Shown piece by piece: positions 15,980 through 34,181 of a stretch of DNA of 64,000 nucleotides. The stretch's first letter is position 1, and each line of letters starts with the position of its first letter. Below the pieces are notes generated by a model that saw nothing but the letters and a program-made list of their open reading frames with translations, had not been told where the DNA came from and ran no database searches. A program made the position numbers and the translations under genes. Origin of the DNA: an uncultured Gammaproteobacteria bacterium (GTDB taxonomy: Bacteria; Pseudomonadota; Gammaproteobacteria; Pseudomonadales; Azotimanducaceae); contig CAJWQG010000005.1 of NCBI GenBank assembly GCA_913045175.1, forward strand, positions 23,078 through 87,077, written 5' to 3'.

Positions 15980-17223
15980 TCAAGCGAGGATAGAGATGTA
16001 GCGACCCGATATCGCCGCAATTTTTGCACGCAATAACTCGTTCTCTACATCAAGAAGATCAAGTAACGTTCTTTTATTAAGCGCCAACTGCTCCTTATAA
16101 ACTTTAAGCACTTCTTCGGTTGAGTTTACGTGGGCTTCAAGATGCTCTAGCCGCATGAGAATGTCTTCCAGTTCGTTCCAGATAAGCGTTGCATCCTATT
16201 CTACCGCCCGGCGTACACTTCGTACGGTCTCCCTCGCGGCAAATTCTCGCGCTTCCGCCTCATTCATTCGCGCTCGGTCGCCGTCCCCTCGAAAGAGGTT
16301 ATATGACATCCTAACTACTGCAGTCTCGTCATCATTGTCACTAACGGTCCCATCAATGTCCTCATTTCTGGTCGCACCCACCTCAAGATCCAATCTAGGA
16401 TGGAATGCACCACTGGTTTGTTTGCGGGCTGAAATTGCGGCCTGTAGATCTGCTTCGGCAGCTTTTAATCCTGGATTGTTGCGATATGCCAGTTCAATCG
16501 CCTGCTCCAACGTTGACGGTAATCCTTTAACCACCGGAGGATCGAAAAGTTGGTCAGGATTCTCGCCTACCACCCGATAGAACTCAGCTCGACCATTTTT
16601 CGAGTCTCTCTAAGATAACAGCACATTCGATTTCGCCTGTACTTTACGACCAACCGTCTGTACAACATCCACTTTCGTTCCAACACCGCTTTCGAAGCGC
16701 TCCTGAATTTTCGAGAGGGTTTCTTCGTGATGCCTGAGATTTTCTTCCGAGAGTTCAACGACCGCGTCACGTCGCAACACTTCAAGATAAACCTGAATAG
16801 CCCTAAGGCTGACATTCTCCTGGCTGCTGGCCAGACGCGACATGGCAGCCAAAAATAAATGCTCCTGCTGCTTTACCAGATTTCGAGTCGCAAAACCGTC
16901 ATAGAGAAGTTGAGTAAGCTTGAGACTGCCCTACATCCGATCCAGTTCCAGGTCACTCTGTCCCGTGCCTACGTGCCTACGAGCGCCGCCCGTGTCTTTG
17001 TGTTATTCGACGCTTCTCGACCACCCGCGATGACGAGATCCACTACCGGGAAATAACCACTTCTCGCCTGATTGCGGAGTTGTTCGGCGGCTTCTACATT
17101 ATACTTGCCGGCCAGGATGTCCGGATTGGTCTGGAGAGTATTGGCCACTACGTCGGTCAAGGACTGGCCCTGGACCTGAGAAATCAGCAGTGAAGCTGCA
17201 AGAAATGCGATAAATCGGGACAT
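15980..17223 (-). pseudogene. TolC-family outer membrane protein, broken
   Basis: Fragments in two frames rebuild a TolC-family protein of about 414 residues. It has a signal peptide (MSRFIAFLAASLLISQVQG) and an N-terminal helix with NPDILAGKYNVEAAEQLRNQ. SLKLTQLLYDGFATRN is the hallmark 'tQxLFDGF' strand. ASSQENVSLRAIQVYLEVLR, then ENP and NNPGLKAAEADLQAAIS, start the second repeat, and RTLLDLLDVENELL closes it. Lesions are one frameshift near 16970-16985 and three in-frame TAG codons at 16931-16933, 16610-16612 and 16196-16198. At each TAG the family expects a residue such as Glu. The gene is the T1SS/efflux outer-membrane channel type; it is probably inactive unless the lesions are errors. 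Confidence 0.85.
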
Positions 17224-17325: not shown

Positions 17326-20300
17326 TTATTGAATTGTAACCCCTGCTGACTCATAGCTACCCACAATCATGAAGGCAGACCATACATAGGGGTATCCCCA
17401 CTCCGGTGAATTAAGTAAATCGAGCTGAGTCTCACGTAGAGCCACTCTGGCTGGCGTGCCCTGAAGAATACGATCATAAAAGTCGCTCATTAATGCCTGG
17501 GTACCAGCGTCACTAACTTCCCACAAAGAACTAACGACCTCGGCAACGCCCGCTACCTGAAAAGAACGACGCAGACCGTAAACACCTGCCCCCTCGTGAA
17601 TTTCGCCAAGCCCCGTCTCACATGCCGATAGCACCACCAGTCTGGTACCTGAAAGATTCAGATCAAGCACCTCCAATGCGGTAAGTACACTATCATTAGT
17701 TGTATCTATGTCACCAAGAAACTGCGCATTATTGTTGATACCTACAAATGCCAATCCTGCTCGCAGCAGAGGATTATTACCCGAGGGTGGGACATGAACC
17801 TCCGCACTACGTTGCGCCTTCAATATTCTATTTCTCAGCGTGTCATCTGCTTCAAGAAAGAAGCCGTGAGTAGCCATGTGGAGAATTTCGGGTGGCTGGT
17901 CGATTTCTCCGAGGATTTTTTCCTGAGCGTCCTGACCAAAAAACATCGAGCTTGGTTCTTCATTCTTCTGAACCTGATCAGTGATGATTCGCCCTTCTTC
18001 CTCTGCACCAAGTAATGGCGAAAAACTGAGCCCACGGAGCCCACCTCCCACGCCTCGAATGCCAAGTCTGAGCGCTGCAGATCTGCGACCTTCAGCTTCG
18101 GTACGGTCCTCTTCGCTCACTACATCTTCGGAATCATAGTCGGGACCGGCAACAATTAAATATTCACCCTGCACAAGACTGTATTCGTTAGGTAAAAGAT
18201 CTCTGACCGAGGTCAGGATATGCAGGTCATTAGTCTGGATTAGATACTCTTCATCAAAATTGACCAGCGCGTTAAAAGGTAAAATATTGAGTGTTCCATC
18301 GGGTATAAGATAAACATATTCGTTGTCACCGATTGCTTCGCCGATGGGCTCCCATACTTCTTCGTAGGCAATCTGTCCAATTTCCAATAGCTCATCTTCG
18401 TCGGCCAGGTCGTCCTGAATAATCGTACGGTATTCGATTATTGCGGCATCAACATCGTCCCGGTTTTCATACACGACCAGGTCGAACGAAACTCACCAGA
18501 TTCGTTGGACGCAATCCCTGCAAGAAGCTTCTTATCTCCTCCTTCTTCAAAAGCCAGGTAATCAACCAACGTTGTACCTTCCGGCAACACCGAAGCCAAC
18601 CTGTCAACGTTCACCTGGGCAATCGAAGACCGGTATCTCGCACTCGCCCTGCCTAATTCCCCTTGCAGTTCGTTAACTTTCTGTTCAAGTGCATAGAGAA
18701 CTTCAACGTGGCGACCCTGAGTCTCCGCCGTTGGACCCGATAATGTCATTGCCGCCAGATCCTTGCGGGCACTTTCAGGTTCGTCCGCTATCTTGGTCAT
18801 TTCCGGGTCATTAGCGATTTGAGAAATCTGTTGGATTTCAGAGGTAATCTTGAGCAGTAAACCCTTGCGTTGCAGACTTGCCTCTATAGCGCGCTTGCCG
18901 CCATCTGCGGGGTCCACTCGGGTCAGTAAGCTTAGGTATTCATTAAATTCATCGCGATGCAAACGAAGATAACCTTCCCGTGCGTTCTCGCCAGTCACCC
19001 AAAGCATTCGGTCTAGAAAAACGCTCCTACGCGCAAAACCGAGGCTACGCATATCAACCGCGGCCTGCGTCATACCCCGGGCTTCTTTTACCCGGGCGAG
19101 GTTTTTCAGCGTCTCAAAGGTATAGGGATGCTGCTCACTCAACACCATCTCTGCCAGCGATACGGCCTCTGTAAGCATCTGATCTGCTTCTTCAAGTCTG
19201 TTCTGAACAAAATAAATGTCACCCAGATCGATCATCGATCTAATGCTGTCGAGATGCTCTTTTCCGAGCGTACTTCGACGCAATTACAAAGCTCGCAAAG
19301 CGACTTGCTCCGCTTCAGGTAACTGGTCCAGACGAGTCAACACTCGACCGCGATTATTCATGGCCTTCAGGGTCGGCTGATGATCCTCGCCAAACAACAG
19401 CGTCGATTCTTCCTGAATCGTGGCAAACATTTCCCCGGCTGCCTCATATTCCTCCATTAGCATGTAGAGAAAGGCAAGATTATTGCGGACGGCTATCGTG
19501 TCTGTGTGTTCTTCACCAAGGGCCTGCTTTTCGTATATCTGCCCCAGGTTGTTCATTGCGACCAGTGTTGATGCATGGGACTCACCTACAACCTCGGTCA
19601 ATCCCACCCATGCCTCTTCAAATGTGGCTTCCGCCTCTGCCAGGAACCCTTGTGCCTGATATATTGCCCCCAACTCCAACAAGGTATTGAAAATGTTTAG
19701 CGGTTGATCCTGCCAGAACTGCAAGCCGTAGTCCAAAACCTCATCGGTAACTTGTTGCGCACTTTCGTAGACTTCCTCATCCCGAAAAACTCTCGCTAAA
19801 TAGGATCGTGCGCCATGGCTCGCCTCGGTTTCACCCACCTGAGCAGCGGTTTGCATCACGCCCGTCAGTAACTCACTACTCTCCTGGTATCGTCCTTGCT
19901 TCCGATAAACTTCAGCCAGTTGGCTAAGGGCATTTAGCGCCACCCCGTCGATCTTGGGCTGACTGGCTCCTAATCGGTCTATTGCTTCCTGATACATGAT
20001 TTCGGCGGTATCCAGATACCCCACTAGTTACTGCAAGCCCTGCCAGATAAACCAAACAGTTAACGGATTGGGGATGATATCTGCCATACCCCTGTTCATA
20101 GATCCCGCACACATCAGACAAAACGCCGATTGCTTCACCGACTTCGCCCGCATTTTCGAGTAGCGTGGCAGTAGATATCTGCGCTTCGAGCGTTAGACCA
20201 TGAAACGGTCCCAGCGACTCTTCATACCTTGAAGCCCTAAGTTCATTCAGCGCCAACGCATCTTCCGTTGCACCAACAGCACCATACAGCTCGACCATTA

Positions 20301-20966
20301 AGCCAACGATTTCCAGCGTTCCCGGATGTGTCTCTCCCAACACTGCAACCCCGGCAGCCAAAGCTGCGTTGTAATAAGCATCAGCCTCCTCTGCAACCTC
20401 GGCCAGGCGATACAGGTAACCCATATCACTCATCGCTTCCACGGTAATCCAGTGGTCCTCACCCAGCATGTCCTGAGCTAACTGCATCACCAGTTCCTGG
20501 TTTTGCAGTGCCGTTGCCAGATTCCCCGAAGCGTATGCGGCATCTCGTTCTACTCGCAGTTCGCAGTTCGCAGTTCGCTGATCGCGGCCCGCACCTCATC
20601 GTCACCTATCTGACTAACAGCGTCCTGCATTGCAACAAGTTCAACAGGAATCGCAGAATAAACTTCTGATATTTTGTCATGCAGGTCCGCAACGCGTTCC
20701 TTGTCGCTTGCTATTGCTATTTCAACCTGTTCTGCCAGCACTTCAGCAGCTAGCTCAGAAGCGCCCAACTCCTGGGCCAGATAGACGACCATCTCAATCG
20801 TTTCAGCATCACCCGGCTTGTTAACCAGAATTTCAAGATATAGTCCGAGAGCTGCCTCAGCATCCCCCGAGCCCAGGGCGGCTTCCGCCTGCTCGTTTAG
20901 ATCATTCGCGACAGCGGGATTGAAGCAAAACAGAAATAAAATCAGACAGGATAGTGCTCGATTCAT
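17326..20966 (-). pseudogene. TPR-CHAT protein (caspase-like peptidase domain), broken in four places
   Basis: Five ORF-track pieces make one protein of about 1,210 residues. The order is signal peptide (MNRALSCLILFLFCFNPAVA), many TPR repeats of the kinesin-light-chain type (LGEDHWIT, LGETHPGT, LGEEHTDT, LGKEHLDS at regular spacing), a helical linker, and a C-terminal CHAT domain. The CHAT dyad is intact: His in HMATHGFF and Cys in VVLSACETGLG. Lesions are a triplicated 7-mer (20554-20578), an extra G in a GGGG run near 20020, a TAA at 19284-19286 where GAA fits, and a one-base slip near 18480. Restored, it would be an exported or periplasmic CHAT protein. Its targets are unknown. Confidence 0.85.
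20554..20578. repeat. 7-bp tandem repeat (TCGCAGT)3 inside the TPR-CHAT gene
   Basis: Three exact TCGCAGT units plus TCGC lie within the coding part. On the coding strand they read ACTGCGA. With one unit the frame reads S-E-L-R-V-E-R-D and joins the downstream TPR frame exactly; three units add 14 bases and lead to a TAG after T-A-N-C-E. One or four copies would be in frame, two or three out. This is a slippage-prone switch or a simple duplication mutation. Confidence 0.85.
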
Positions 20967-20982
20967 CTTGGGACCCTTCTTT

Positions 20983-21012
20983 CTTTAAGGTGTCAGACTT
21001 TAAGGTGTCCGA
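20983..21012. repeat. 15-bp tandem duplication upstream of the TPR-CHAT gene
   Basis: CTTTAAGGTGTCAGA is followed at once by CTTTAAGGTGTCCGA. It sits 17 bases upstream of the TPR-CHAT ATG (20966) on the minus strand, inside its leader or promoter. Copy number could affect expression; that is inference. The rest of the 20967-21145 gap is AT-rich and should also hold the promoter of the divergent dehydrogenase gene. Confidence 0.7.
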
Positions 21013-23289: not shown

Positions 23290-23682
23290 ATGGATTGCCC
23301 CAAGTGCCACGCATCGATGGAAGAAGTTACATTAAGCACGCTCAAAGGCGGCGTGACTGTTGATCAATGTAAAAACTGTCATGGCATCTGGTTTGATATC
23401 GGCGAAGCGGAAGCACTTAAAGATAAGTGGATGTCCGACTACGTTGATTCAGGAGACCCCGGTGTTGGCAGGGACCACAAAAAAATACGAGACATAGATT
23501 GACCACGTTGTGGTAAACGCATGCAGGAGCTATCTGACCCGTTGCAGATCCATATTCAGTATGAGGCTTGTGACGAACATGGAATGTACTTTGATGCCGG
23601 AGAATTCACCGACTACAAATACGAAACGTTGATGGATATCTTCAGAGGCTTCGTTTTTGCCGTACGCAAAGAAAAAGAATAA
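23290..23682 (+). CDS. Two-domain zf-TFIIB zinc-ribbon protein with an in-frame TGA at a Cys position
   Basis: The first 70 codons encode one zinc ribbon (MDCPKC, then CKNCHGIWFDIGEAE) and end at a TGA at 23500-23502. The same frame stays open for 59 more codons to a TAA at 23680-23682. It encodes a second ribbon: [TGA]-PRCGKRM, YEACDEHGMYFDAGEFTDY. In this family the TGA position is the first Cys of CPRCG, so TGA replaces TGC/TGT. The 4195-4377 protein is homologous to the second half. The TGA could be a point mutation, a sequence error, or a selenocysteine codon giving a UxxC motif. If it stops translation, a one-ribbon protein remains. Confidence 0.7.
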
Positions 23683-23738: not shown

Positions 23739-26345
23739 ATGGAAGAATTAGTTTCACGCAGATTACGTCACCGAGTACGCGTTCTCGGCGATCTGCTCGG
23801 CCAGACAATGGCTGCGCAACTCGGCGACGAGTTTCTCGAGAAGGTTGAGCAGATACGACTGCTGGCAAAAACGAGACGACAGGAAGGGCATGGTGATTTT
23901 GCACAACTTCGCGAAGTCCTGGCAGACCTGGATGAAGATCAACTTATTTCTGTTGCACGGGCCTTCAATCAGTTCCTGAATTTAACGAATATTGCAGAAC
24001 AGGCCGATGCAACGGAAAACCTTCAGTTCCCTGATGCCTCACATCTAAAAACCCTTTTCAACAAGTTAAATCAGCTCAGCATCGAACCAGCAAAAATCGC
24101 AGAAACTGTAAACAACCTACATTGTGACCTTGTGCTCACGGCCCACCCCACAGAGATAACACGAAGGACGCTTATTCAAAAATACAACAGAATTGCAGAG
24201 GCTCTTGCCGAGGTGCTGGAAAACGAACCACTGGGTGAACAAAGCAAAGTAGAGCTAACGCGTCTGATAGCGGAAGTCTGGCACACAGACGAAATCCGAA
24301 CTGAAAGACCTATGCCCCAGGACGAAGCCATCTGGGGATACGCGGTCATTGAGCACTCCTTGTGGCACGCGATACCTAAACTCTGGGAAGGGTTAGATGA
24401 GCTCCTCCGAGAACACACTGATACTTCTTTATCCATTGATTGTGCCCCGATCACCATTTCGTCGTGGATGGGCGGCGACCGTGATGGAAACCCAAACGTC
24501 ACAACGGACGTAACAGATGAGGTACTTCGTCTAGCCCGCTGGATGGCCGCAGACCTCTACCTTAGAGACCTTGAAGAGCTGCTTTCGCAACTATCGATGT
24601 CCATGTGTAACGACGAAGTTGCCCAGCTATGTGGGGAAGAATCGCACGAACCGTATCGATCAATTCTCAGGGACCTGCGCGCCAAGCTAAATGCCACGAG
24701 GGACTGGGCGGAAACAAAAGATCCTCCATATGCTGGGCTGATAGTCGACAGGAATGACCTCTTCGAACCGCTACATACCTGTTACCGCTCATTACACGAA
24801 TGCGGGATGGGCATCATTGCCGAAGGACTACTCAAGCAGACACTGATTCGCATCACGACCTTTGGCGTTACCCTGATTGACCTGGACATCAGACAGAGTG
24901 CAGATAAACACACAGAACTGATGGAAGAACTTATCTCTTTTCTTGGAATGGGAAGTTACAAGTCATGGTCAGAGAAAGCACGACATGACTTTCTTTTGGA
25001 AGAACTTGCCAATACAAGACCGCTTATCCCGGAAAGCTGGGAACCAGAGGGTGAAGAGGGAGAAACGCTTCGGACTATACGACTTATCGCAAACGGCGAT
25101 GCAGATGGTGTGTCTTGCTATATCATCTCCATGGCCAAAAACCCCTCAGATGTTTTGTCAGTTATTCTACTCTTGCGCAAATCGGGTCTTGCGCGATCGT
25201 TACCCATAGTGCCCTTGTTTGAAACTCTGGACGACCTTAATAACGCCGCCTGGACACTCGAGAGACTACTTCGGGATCCCATGTACCGGGGATACATCGA
25301 CGGACACCAACAGGTAATGATCGGGTATTCCGACTCTGCCAAAGACGCCGGACAAATGGCCGCGGCCTGGGCACAGTATCGAGCTCAGGAAGAGTTGGTT
25401 GAGGTAACAGAAAAATATGACATCGACCTGACTTTGTTTCACGGCCGCGGGGGTGCAGCCGGTCGCGGTGGCGCACCAATCAGACAGGCTATTTTGTCAC
25501 AGCCTCCCAGTACCATAAAACGTGGCATGCGAGTTACCGAGCAGGGAGAGATGATTCGTTTTAAGTATGGCTCTCCCCTGTTGGCACAAAACAGCATGGA
25601 TCTCGTTCTCAGTGCGGCTATTGAAGCTAACCTGATTCCTTCCCCCAAACCCAGGGATAACTGGCGTAACCTCATGGATCGTCTTACCACTGTCGCGATG
25701 CAGGACTATCGGAACACGGTCAAAGACGAATCCGATTTTGCCGACTACTTTCGGTCTAGCACACCTGAACAAGAACTTAGCCTTCTGGCTTTGGGGAGCC
25801 GCCCTACAAGACGCAATACCAACAGCAATGCCATTAGTGACTTACGTGCAATCCCCTGGGTATTTGCCTGGACCCAGAAGCGGCTTATGATTCCTGCCTG
25901 GCTTGGTACCAACGCGGCTTTAGCCAGCGAATTTTCAACGAAAGATAAGTTTGTCATCAAGGAAATGATGTCCGAATGGCCGTTCTTCCAAACCCAAATG
26001 GATCTATTGGAAATGGTACTGACCAAGGCGGACGCAGAGATCGCTCAACATTATGACGAAGTATTGGTTCCAGATAGCCTCCTTCACTTCGGCGAGCGTT
26101 TCCAACGGGAACTCACCTCTCTGATAGAGAACGTCAACCAGATTAAGGAACAAAACATACTACTTGAACATGCACCTGACGTACGGCGGACCATTGACCT
26201 TCGTGATCCCTATACGGACCCGCTACACTTCCTGCAAATTGAACTTATCTCCCGGTATCGCATGGATGACTCCAACGAACGGGTCAAGAAAGCGCTACTG
26301 ATAACAATCGCAGGTATCGCGGCAAGTATGCGAAACACTGGCTAA
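23739..26345 (+). CDS. ppc: Phosphoenolpyruvate carboxylase
   Basis: An 868-residue cytosolic enzyme, normal for bacterial PEPC, which fixes bicarbonate onto PEP to give oxaloacetate for the TCA cycle. Visible motifs are VLTAHPTEITRRT (catalytic His), SSWMGGDRDGNPNVT, GYSDSAKDAGQMAAAWA, FHGRGGAAGRGGAP (mobile loop), EQGEMIRFKYG, and RAIPWVFAWTQKRLMIPAWLG. It ends in NTG, the conserved C-terminal tail that joins the active and allosteric sites. Only 56 bases separate it from the zinc-ribbon gene, and the next gene starts directly after its stop. Confidence 0.97.
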   Translation: MEELVSRRLRHRVRVLGDLLGQTMAAQLGDEFLEKVEQIRLLAKTRRQEGHGDFAQLREVLADLDEDQLISVARAFNQFLNLTNIAEQADATENLQFPDASHLKTLFNKLNQLSIEPAKIAETVNNLHCDLVLTAHPTEITRRTLIQKYNRIAEALAEVLENEPLGEQSKVELTRLIAEVWHTDEIRTERPMPQDEAIWGYAVIEHSLWHAIPKLWEGLDELLREHTDTSLSIDCAPITISSWMGGDRDGNPNVTTDVTDEVLRLARWMAADLYLRDLEELLSQLSMSMCNDEVAQLCGEESHEPYRSILRDLRAKLNATRDWAETKDPPYAGLIVDRNDLFEPLHTCYRSLHECGMGIIAEGLLKQTLIRITTFGVTLIDLDIRQSADKHTELMEELISFLGMGSYKSWSEKARHDFLLEELANTRPLIPESWEPEGEEGETLRTIRLIANGDADGVSCYIISMAKNPSDVLSVILLLRKSGLARSLPIVPLFETLDDLNNAAWTLERLLRDPMYRGYIDGHQQVMIGYSDSAKDAGQMAAAWAQYRAQEELVEVTEKYDIDLTLFHGRGGAAGRGGAPIRQAILSQPPSTIKRGMRVTEQGEMIRFKYGSPLLAQNSMDLVLSAAIEANLIPSPKPRDNWRNLMDRLTTVAMQDYRNTVKDESDFADYFRSSTPEQELSLLALGSRPTRRNTNSNAISDLRAIPWVFAWTQKRLMIPAWLGTNAALASEFSTKDKFVIKEMMSEWPFFQTQMDLLEMVLTKADAEIAQHYDEVLVPDSLLHFGERFQRELTSLIENVNQIKEQNILLEHAPDVRRTIDLRDPYTDPLHFLQIELISRYRMDDSNERVKKALLITIAGIAASMRNTG

Positions 26346-31010: not shown

Positions 31011-32714
31011 CTAGAACAGGAAGTAACGTTGTGCGAGAGGCAACTCTTCTGCCGGCTCACAGGTCAATAGCGTTCCATCCGCCCTTACTTCATAGGTCTC
31101 GGGATCTACCTCAATGTCCGGGGTATAGTCGTTTAGCCGCATATCGGACTTACTTACCTCACGCGTATTACTGACGGGCATTAGACTCTTTTGTAAATTG
31201 AGTGACTCCGCCACGCCATTGTCCATTGCCGCACCGGACACAAAACTGAGCGACGTTGCCGTCAATGCGCCACCAAAAGCACCGAACATGGGTCGATAGT
31301 GAACCGGCTGAGGGGTCGGAATCGACGCATTGGGATCTCCCATGGGGGCTGCCAGGATTGCCCCACCCTTGATAATCATGGCGGGTTTGGCGCCAAAGAA
31401 AGCAGGTTTCCACAACACCAGATCTGCAAGTTTACCAACCTCTACGGAACCAACTTCGTTCGCGACACCATGGGCAATAGCAGGATTGATCGTATATTTC
31501 GCGATGTAGCGTTTCACACGAAAGTTGTCATTACGCGCAGAGTCCTCTGTTAAGGCGCCACGCTGCACCTTCATCTTATGCGCAGTTTGCCAGGTGCGGG
31601 TAATGACTTCGCCAACGCGTCCCATGGCTTGTGAATCTGACGCGATCATGGAAAACGCGCCAAGGTCATGCAGGATATCTTCCGCCGCAATGGTCTCACG
31701 CCGAATACGTGATTCCGCAAACGCAATATCTTCAGGAATACTCGAATCAAGATGGTGACAAACCATCAACATATCCAGATGTTCGTCGATCGTGTTGACT
31801 GTATAGGGTCTTGTAGGATTCGTGGACGAGGGCAATACATTAGGCAAACTACACGCCTTAATAATATCGGGCGCATGTCCTCCTCCTGCCCCTTCAGTAT
31901 GAAAGGTATGAATCGTTCGATCCTTAAATGCCGCGAGCGTGTTCTCCACAAAGCCTGATTCATTCAGTGTGTCCGTATGAATTGCCACCTGAACATCCAT
32001 GGAATCCGCGACCCTAAGACAGCAATCTATTGCTCCCGGCGTCGTCCCCCAGTCTTCATGGAGCTTCAACCCCATCGCACCGGCGGCGACCTGTTCAGTC
32101 AGCGCTTCAGGTAGGCTGGCGTTTCCCTTGCCCATAAATCCCAGATTCATCGGTAAACCATCGGCAGCCTGCAACATCATAGCGATGTGCCACGGACCAG
32201 GGGTGCAGGTGGTTGCGTTGGTTCCTGTGGCAGGACCAGTGCCACCACCCAGCATCGTGGTCACACCGGACATTAATGCCTCTTCTATTTGTTGCGGACA
32301 GATAAAGTGGATGTGTGCATCGATACCTCCCGCAGTCAGAATCTGTCCTTCCCCTGCTATCGCTTCGGTACCCGGCCCAACGACGATATCTACATTAGCC
32401 TGGGTATCGGGATTCCCCGCCTTACCAATACCTACTATTCGACCTGCTTTAATACCTACGTCCGCTTTGACGATACCCCAGTAATCAACAATAAGCGCAT
32501 TAGTGATCACGGTGTCCACAGTTTCGCTGGATGGTCGCTGAGACTGACCCATACCGTCCCTAATGACTTTCCCTCCACCAAACTTAACCTCATCACCGTA
32601 AACGGCATGGTCATGCTCCACCTCAATGATGAGATCGGTGTCGCCCAGGCGCACTCGATCTCCGGTGGTTGGACCAAACATATCTGCATAGGCCTGACGA
32701 CTCATTTTACTCAT
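31011..32714 (-). CDS. ureC: Urease alpha subunit (catalytic)
   Basis: A 567-residue catalytic subunit that hydrolyses urea to ammonia and carbamate at a dinickel centre. All key residues are seen: HIHF (two Ni ligands), GLKLHEDWG with the Lys that is carbamylated, [10 protein letters not shown] and TEGAGGGH (further ligands), the flap [13 protein letters not shown] with the catalytic His, and ASDSQAMGR with the Asp ligand. The start ATG at 32714 has GGAGG ten bases upstream and overlaps the ureB stop by 4 nt. Length and motifs indicate a working enzyme. Confidence 0.98.
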
Positions 32715-33028
32715 GACTTATCCTCCAAAGCGCCCATAACTTTCTGGTTAAAGCCATAAACCTCTTTATTTCCAGCAAACTCAACCAAGGTTACCGTCCG
32801 GGTTTGCCCGGGTTCAAAACGCACCGCTGTGCCTGCCGGTATGTCGAGTCTAAATCCTCGTGTGGACTCACGGTCGAAAGAAAGCGCAACGTTGGTTTCA
32901 TAGAAGTGATAGTGAGAGCCAACCTGTATCGGGCGATCGCCCGAGTTGGAAACGGGCACCTCGATTGTGCTGCGTCCTTCATTAAGCAGTAGCTCGCCTG
33001 ACTCGATAAACATTTCTCCGGGAATCAT
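32711..33028 (-). CDS. ureB: Urease beta subunit
   Basis: A 105-residue beta subunit with the family core [28 protein letters not shown] and [20 protein letters not shown]. It packs around UreC in the (UreABC)3 assembly. It starts 9 nt after ureA and its stop overlaps the ureC start (ATGA). Separate ureA and ureB genes fit the usual proteobacterial layout rather than the fused Helicobacter form. Confidence 0.97.
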
Positions 33029-33037
33029 GACAGCTCC

Positions 33038-33340
33038 TTAGGATATTGGATTGTGTACGGTGACAAGTTTGGTTCCGTCGGGAAACGTCGCCTCAACCTG
33101 AACCTCGTGCAGCAACTCGGCAATACCATCCATCACATCATCGCTGCTTAGAATCTCTGTACCGTAAGACATCAGAGCTGCGACAGATTGCCCATCCCGT
33201 GCGCCTTCCATGATAGCAGCAGATATCATGGCAACCGCCTCTGGGTAGTTGAGCTTGACGCCCCTTGCACGACGTTGTTCAGCGAGTTGCGCTGCGAGAA
33301 AAATCAGTAATTTGTCTTTCTCTCTTGGGGTTAACTCCAT
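33038..33340 (-). CDS. ureA: Urease gamma subunit
   Basis: A 100-residue gamma subunit: [38 protein letters not shown], and the C-terminal [20 protein letters not shown]. The ORF track starts 20 residues upstream, but the ATG at 33340 is the universal family start and has GGAGG just before it. It lies 19 nt behind ureD and 9 nt ahead of ureB. Confidence 0.97.
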
Positions 33341-33359
33341 TGCAACCTCCTTCTCTTTA

Positions 33360-34181
33360 TTACGTTGCCCAGATGCGTGGCGCACCCGGTGAAAAACCAT
33401 TGATCAACATACGTATCGCCGACCACAACCGCGTTAGCTCCTCGCGCAGTGCAAAAGCATCATCAGCCAGTGCACGAATCACCAGCACGTCATCTACCAG
33501 CGTTGCCGCCATGTCACAAAAATTCTTTCCATCAATCAGTTCCCGCGTATGGCGTAAAACTTCCTTATCTGCAGGAAACCCGTAGAAGGAACCCAGGACC
33601 AGATGGCTATTAAGCCCCCATGGCGCTGAAAGCACCGCGTCTCCCGCGGACCATTGCTGTCTTTCGATCAGCCGCGGGACTTCATCAACGAGCAGCGTGA
33701 ATACCTGCTCGAATTCACCAGTTGAATAGTCATCACCACTCACGGGGCGCCCCATAGAACAAATCTCCCAACCACAAAAGTGAGAACTGGACTCCAGTCG
33801 TACCGTCGTTGCCTGATGCACACGGCTACCACCAAAAAGCACGGTGTCCTGAGGTAGCCACTCGAGACTCGCGCCCTCGCCCAATTTCAGATCACAAGTA
33901 ATCTGGCTCGTTGCACCTGCGCTGCGATATATCTTCGCAGATGCAGGCGTCGTAATCAGCGCGGCTGCGTTGCTGCAAACTTCCACACTCGTCCCCAATT
34001 CATCGCCACCAACGACACCGCCTGGCGGATGCAAAACATAGACGTGACAAACGCCATCGGGTGGATAAAACGGTTTTTGAATCCGTAAAGGACCCTTATG
34101 TGAACATCTGCTAACTAGTGTCTTACACCCCGATCGACGAAACTGTAAATTGAGGTTCGCCTGCCAACCGTGGAGACTCAT
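33360..34181 (-). CDS. ureD: Urease accessory protein UreD (UreH)
   Basis: A 273-residue accessory protein with the UreD marks [24 protein letters not shown] and [13 protein letters not shown]. UreD binds apo-urease and, with UreF and UreG, forms the tunnel through which nickel passes to the active site. The ATG overlaps the urtE stop by 4 nt, which places urease maturation and urea transport on one transcript. Confidence 0.95.

Follow-up and report, generated by a model that had tools for sequence, protein, structure and literature searches.

An in-frame TGA at a conserved zinc-ribbon cysteine of an uncultured gammaproteobacterium, probably a recent nonsense mutation in a genome that carries selenocysteine machinery

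When a TGA takes the place of a cysteine codon in an otherwise open frame, is it read as selenocysteine (Sec) or does it end translation? The question is raised by a double zinc-ribbon gene, here called ZnR, that occupies 23290..23682 on the forward strand of a 64,000-nucleotide stretch of DNA (the window) from contig C5 of an uncultured gammaproteobacterium (G000, the source genome; 3.67 Mb in 126 contigs, 98% complete). Two intact genes of the same strand flank it and served as synteny anchors, upstream a PlsC-like acyltransferase gene (PF01553, 22627..23217) and downstream ppc (23739..26345), assigned by sequence and synteny to an 868-aa PEP carboxylase. The ZnR frame opens with an ATG at 23290, meets a TGA at 23500-23502 that is directly followed by PRCG, and then stays open to a TAA at 23680-23682, so that its translation, with U for the single TGA, reads MDCPKC...CKNC...DIDUPRCGKRM...YEACDEHGMYFDAGEF....

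The first ribbon (CPKC...CKNC, 23293..23424) is intact and matches the Zn_ribbon_TFIIB profile (PF13453) over residues 2-45 with an E-value of about 1e-15, the scores of 56.9-66.7 bits lying above the curated cut-off of 22. In the second ribbon the TGA takes the place of the leading Cys. The half of the frame beyond it (23503..23679) gave no Pfam match when searched alone; it is nevertheless real coding sequence, given that its codon usage is coding-like and its protein is conserved, with about 81% mean identity to outgroups.

The sequence bears out the earlier note on this DNA, which had placed an in-frame TGA exactly at a zinc-ribbon cysteine, with the frame open on both sides, and had described it as the replacement of a Cys in a UxxC context. 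The column carries TGC or TGT in 40 of the 40 homologues read at codon level. The nearest copies (G006, G107, G062, G003 and others) are 76-83% identical and share the same Cys pattern. ZnR was matched in 76 of the 207 family genomes searched, and none of these matches has another TGA at this column. The rule applied in a Sargasso Sea survey, that a conserved TGA be present in at least two sequences before a new selenoprotein is called (PMC1088965), therefore excludes this one, which is unique to the source genome among the matches in the 207 genomes. Two other ZnR copies were flagged for a TGA, one in G077 at the natural C-terminal end and one in G265 at another column; the latter (L102, G265:C729) is a family member whose in-frame TGA replaces a Gly (FDT*EAE), a lone nonsense change that arose independently. 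Three further ZnR paralogues were matched in the source genome, and two of them carry an in-frame TAG (L054, G000:C15) or TAA (L055, G000:C10), which cannot encode Sec; in a copy from G025 (L105) a TAG stands almost where L055 has its TAA.

The earlier note had named the absence of sel genes as grounds for rejecting a selenoprotein, and this argument fails, since the source genome holds a complete Sec system. It contains a tRNA-Sec on contig C18 (61.5 bits, anticodon TCA, that is UCA), adjoining genes for SelA (540.7 bits) and SelB (470.6 bits), and SelD (274.7 bits) with a Cys in its own active-site motif; SelD (L017) is preceded by a fused NAD(P)H-dehydrogenase-like domain, and the tRNA-Sec gene follows about 660 nt downstream of it. 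The genome also has an intact-looking SelW/Rdx gene of the CxxU type with the motif YCGGU (L101, G000:C68:2779-2985, reverse strand), and most of the family's SelW genes keep this TGA. We infer that Sec decoding is present in this organism and in use, and missing sel genes cannot dispose of the idea that ZnR is a selenoprotein.

The decision thus falls to the site itself. Published bacterial criteria for a SECIS element ask for a loop of 3-9 nt with a G in its first two positions, on a stem of 4-16 bp, at 16-37 nt from the UGA and with a minimum free energy of -7.5 kcal/mol or lower (PMC13188914), and we coded these criteria and ran them on the ZnR site, on SelW controls and on Cys backgrounds. 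The search around the TGA that the earlier note had proposed came out against a selenoprotein, since the best qualifying hairpin at the ZnR site reaches only -4.0 kcal/mol against the cut-off of -7.5. The small hairpin ACCAC-GTT-GTGGT that had been reported to begin at the A of the TGA is real (23502..23514, forward strand) and was rightly judged too close for a bacterial SECIS, its loop lying 4 nt from the UGA where 16-37 nt are required. RNA at the TGA folds no better than shuffled sequence (z +0.4 to +0.9), and the region has no match in Rfam.

As positive control, all 19 of the SelW Sec sites that could be located in the clade passed the same scan, a sensitivity that refers to this one protein family. 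Their geometry is uniform, 18 of the 19 placing a GUU or GUC loop 22 nt beyond the UGA (L101, L179-L199), which makes them a useful control set for the clade; AhpD-family genes (PF02627) of the source genome contain no in-frame TGA that could have served as a control. Ordinary Cys codons of the window passed in 41 of 161 cases (about 25%), and the homologous Cys sites of ZnR in 1 of 40. The scan is therefore sensitive and not specific: a pass would have been weak evidence, whereas the failure at ZnR is informative.

The state of the gene in related genomes, where those with record titles are mostly metagenome-assembled genomes named Gammaproteobacteria, Pseudomonadales or OM182, points to a dispensable gene. 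The order PlsC-ZnR-Ppc recurs in G001, G003, G056 and G057 and is reversed in G107, with spacers of varying length. Within the genus, G003 and G006 carry the ortholog intact, the source genome an interrupted copy and G001 a wrecked one; no ortholog was found in G002, where only the other paralogue matched, nor in G004 and G005, which gave no match. G001, the sister genome, is the closest relative at the locus (Ppc 90% and an FAD protein 91% identical), and its ZnR, in the same position, has several stops and a shifted frame. The two inactivations are independent, because the G001 pseudogene still has TGT at the site of the TGA.

Other genes of the window are interrupted too, as the earlier note had said in pointing to further nonsense changes nearby. 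A TolC-like outer membrane efflux gene (OEP, PF02321; 15932..16963, reverse strand) holds four in-frame stops and no frameshift, three TAG codons at 16931-16933, 16610-16612 and 16196-16198 where G003 has Glu, and a TGA at 15980-15982 where G003 has Arg. A TPR gene (18438..20984, reverse strand) has an in-frame TAA at 19284-19286, again Glu in G003, besides frame breaks near 20015-20029 and 20559-20562, and is adjoined by an intact CHAT-domain gene (17326-18492). The stops at these Glu and Arg columns cannot be Sec. G001 lacks the TPR and CHAT genes at its equivalent of this locus (L090) and retains the TolC-like gene in a truncated, decayed form, so that the genes interrupted in the source genome are those truncated, decayed or absent in its closest relative. 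All of the interruptions lie close together, within about 7.6 kb, and the large neighbours Ppc (868 aa), the FAD protein (493 aa) and the CHAT protein (388 aa) are untouched.

Sampled stretches of seven genomes were also screened by codon usage for interrupted genes, but true gene junctions and GC-rich genomes disturb the result too much for rates to be compared between genomes, and it served only to locate candidates. One in-frame TAA in the window, at 33038, was taken up as a further interruption and rejected, as it is the true junction of the urease gamma and beta genes, which together with the alpha gene are intact (31011-33403, reverse strand). Reassignment of a stop codon was rejected as well, because each of the three stops is found both inside frames and at the ends of intact genes. 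ARAGORN showed no suppressor tRNA for UAG or UAA on the loci covered, a weak negative, as the tRNA set is incomplete and includes none for Ala, His, Ile or Tyr.

Taken together, we consider it likely, with a rough probability of three in four, that the TGA is a genuine recent nonsense mutation in a dispensable gene, in a lineage that is discarding ZnR along with the neighbouring TPR/CHAT/TolC-like block. The stop is absent from all orthologs, the site shows no recoding signal and relatives do without the gene. A nonsense codon is favoured over Sec by the failure at the SECIS scan where the clade controls pass, by the codons that homologues have at this column and by what has become of the gene in the sister genome. 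A TGC or TGT in the Cys codon would have changed to TGA, translation would stop at 23500, and a 70-aa fragment with one intact ribbon would be left, the second ribbon being lost; the TGA is presumably real in the living population and terminates translation there. Of the two alternatives that the earlier note had left side by side, the nonsense mutation is thus the one supported, and the selenoprotein is disfavoured at this site in spite of the sel genes. That the mutation should have struck a Cys needs no special cause, because stops that are not Sec are common both among ZnR genes and in this part of the contig, and of the 59 one-step routes that lead to a stop in ZnR, 7 (12%) start from Cys codons; a chance fall of a TGA on a Cys is not very unlikely.

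If the mutation is genuine it must be recent, since the protein of the source genome evolves no faster than the intact one of G003 on either side of the TGA. No relaxation of constraint is visible on this branch, which is compatible with a very recent event. As a general expectation, neutral decay, like random sequencing error, should add on the order of fifteen missense changes for each stop, and amino-acid change on this branch is not raised in ZnR, in the TPR gene or in the TolC-like gene, the last having 16 unique changes in the source genome and 15 in G003 when set against the outgroup G056. For the single stop of ZnR a very recent mutation explains the lack of a missense excess. Simple neutral decay does not explain four stops without missense decay in the TolC-like gene, where we can only guess at a mosaic of strains, each carrying a loss-of-function allele of its own, or at an unusual mutational or selective process.

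The same lack of missense change is what lends some weight to the main alternative, an error of sequencing or of the assembly consensus, or a strain mosaic in the metagenome assembly, in which case the TGA would be unreal and the population would carry Cys. The TGA is known from a single assembly, one in 126 contigs and with relatives that, where they have record titles, are themselves nearly all assembled from metagenomes. However, random errors should have added about 15 or more missense changes per stop, which are not seen either, and they would hardly be confined to about 7.6 kb while sparing the Ppc, FAD and CHAT proteins, or strike just those genes lost from the sister lineage. We therefore regard an artefact as unlikely, if far from negligible.

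It is also conceivable that the 70-aa single-ribbon protein is functional and that the TGA shortens the gene product without loss of function, because the PF13453 domain of the first ribbon is complete and finishes well ahead of the stop. Both ribbons are retained by the close orthologs of the family, however, and the second half of ZnR is as conserved as the first, which indicates that both halves normally matter; in addition, the whole gene has been lost in the sister genome. Such a shortening seems to us highly improbable.

Just as little credence can be given to a UGA read as Sec, with UPRCG in the second ribbon. This reading has in its favour a host with tRNA-Sec, SelA, SelB, SelD and a SelW-type CxxU gene, the exact exchange of a conserved Cys for TGA in a UxxC context and the conservation of the frame on both sides. 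Against it stand the missing SECIS where 19 of 19 SelW controls of the clade have one, a TGA confined to one genome, the ongoing loss of the ortholog in the genus and the nearby stops at Glu and Arg columns. Furthermore, the CxxC...C pattern suggests that the Cys is a structural zinc ligand and not a redox residue, and a literature search for zinc ribbons with Sec or as pseudogenes found nothing relevant. A newborn selenoprotein, in which Sec has just replaced the metal-ligand Cys and is inserted without a recognisable SECIS, before one has evolved, is the least credible reading of all.

The finding is an ordinary one. Its use lies in showing that a TGA at a Cys in a genome with sel genes is not sufficient for calling a selenoprotein; a true Sec-containing zinc ribbon would have mattered more.

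Compared with known systems, the gene is a clear ortholog, next to ppc, of the PF13453 double zinc-ribbon proteins of marine Gammaproteobacteria (Pseudomonadales and OM182 metagenome-assembled genomes), from which it differs by the TGA that replaces the leading Cys of the second ribbon and by D120G at a near-invariant site. It resembles bacterial selenoproteins with Cys homologues, such as the SelW-like CxxU protein of the same genome, in having Sec genes in the host and a TGA on a conserved Cys in a UxxC context, but unlike them it has neither a SECIS nor a second member with TGA, and the position looks like a metal ligand. Although no excess of missense changes has yet built up in ZnR or in its more heavily interrupted neighbour, which sets it apart from the single-nonsense pseudogenes of gene-losing lineages, it is like these in having one stop, a conserved frame, a decayed ortholog in the sister genome and broken neighbours.
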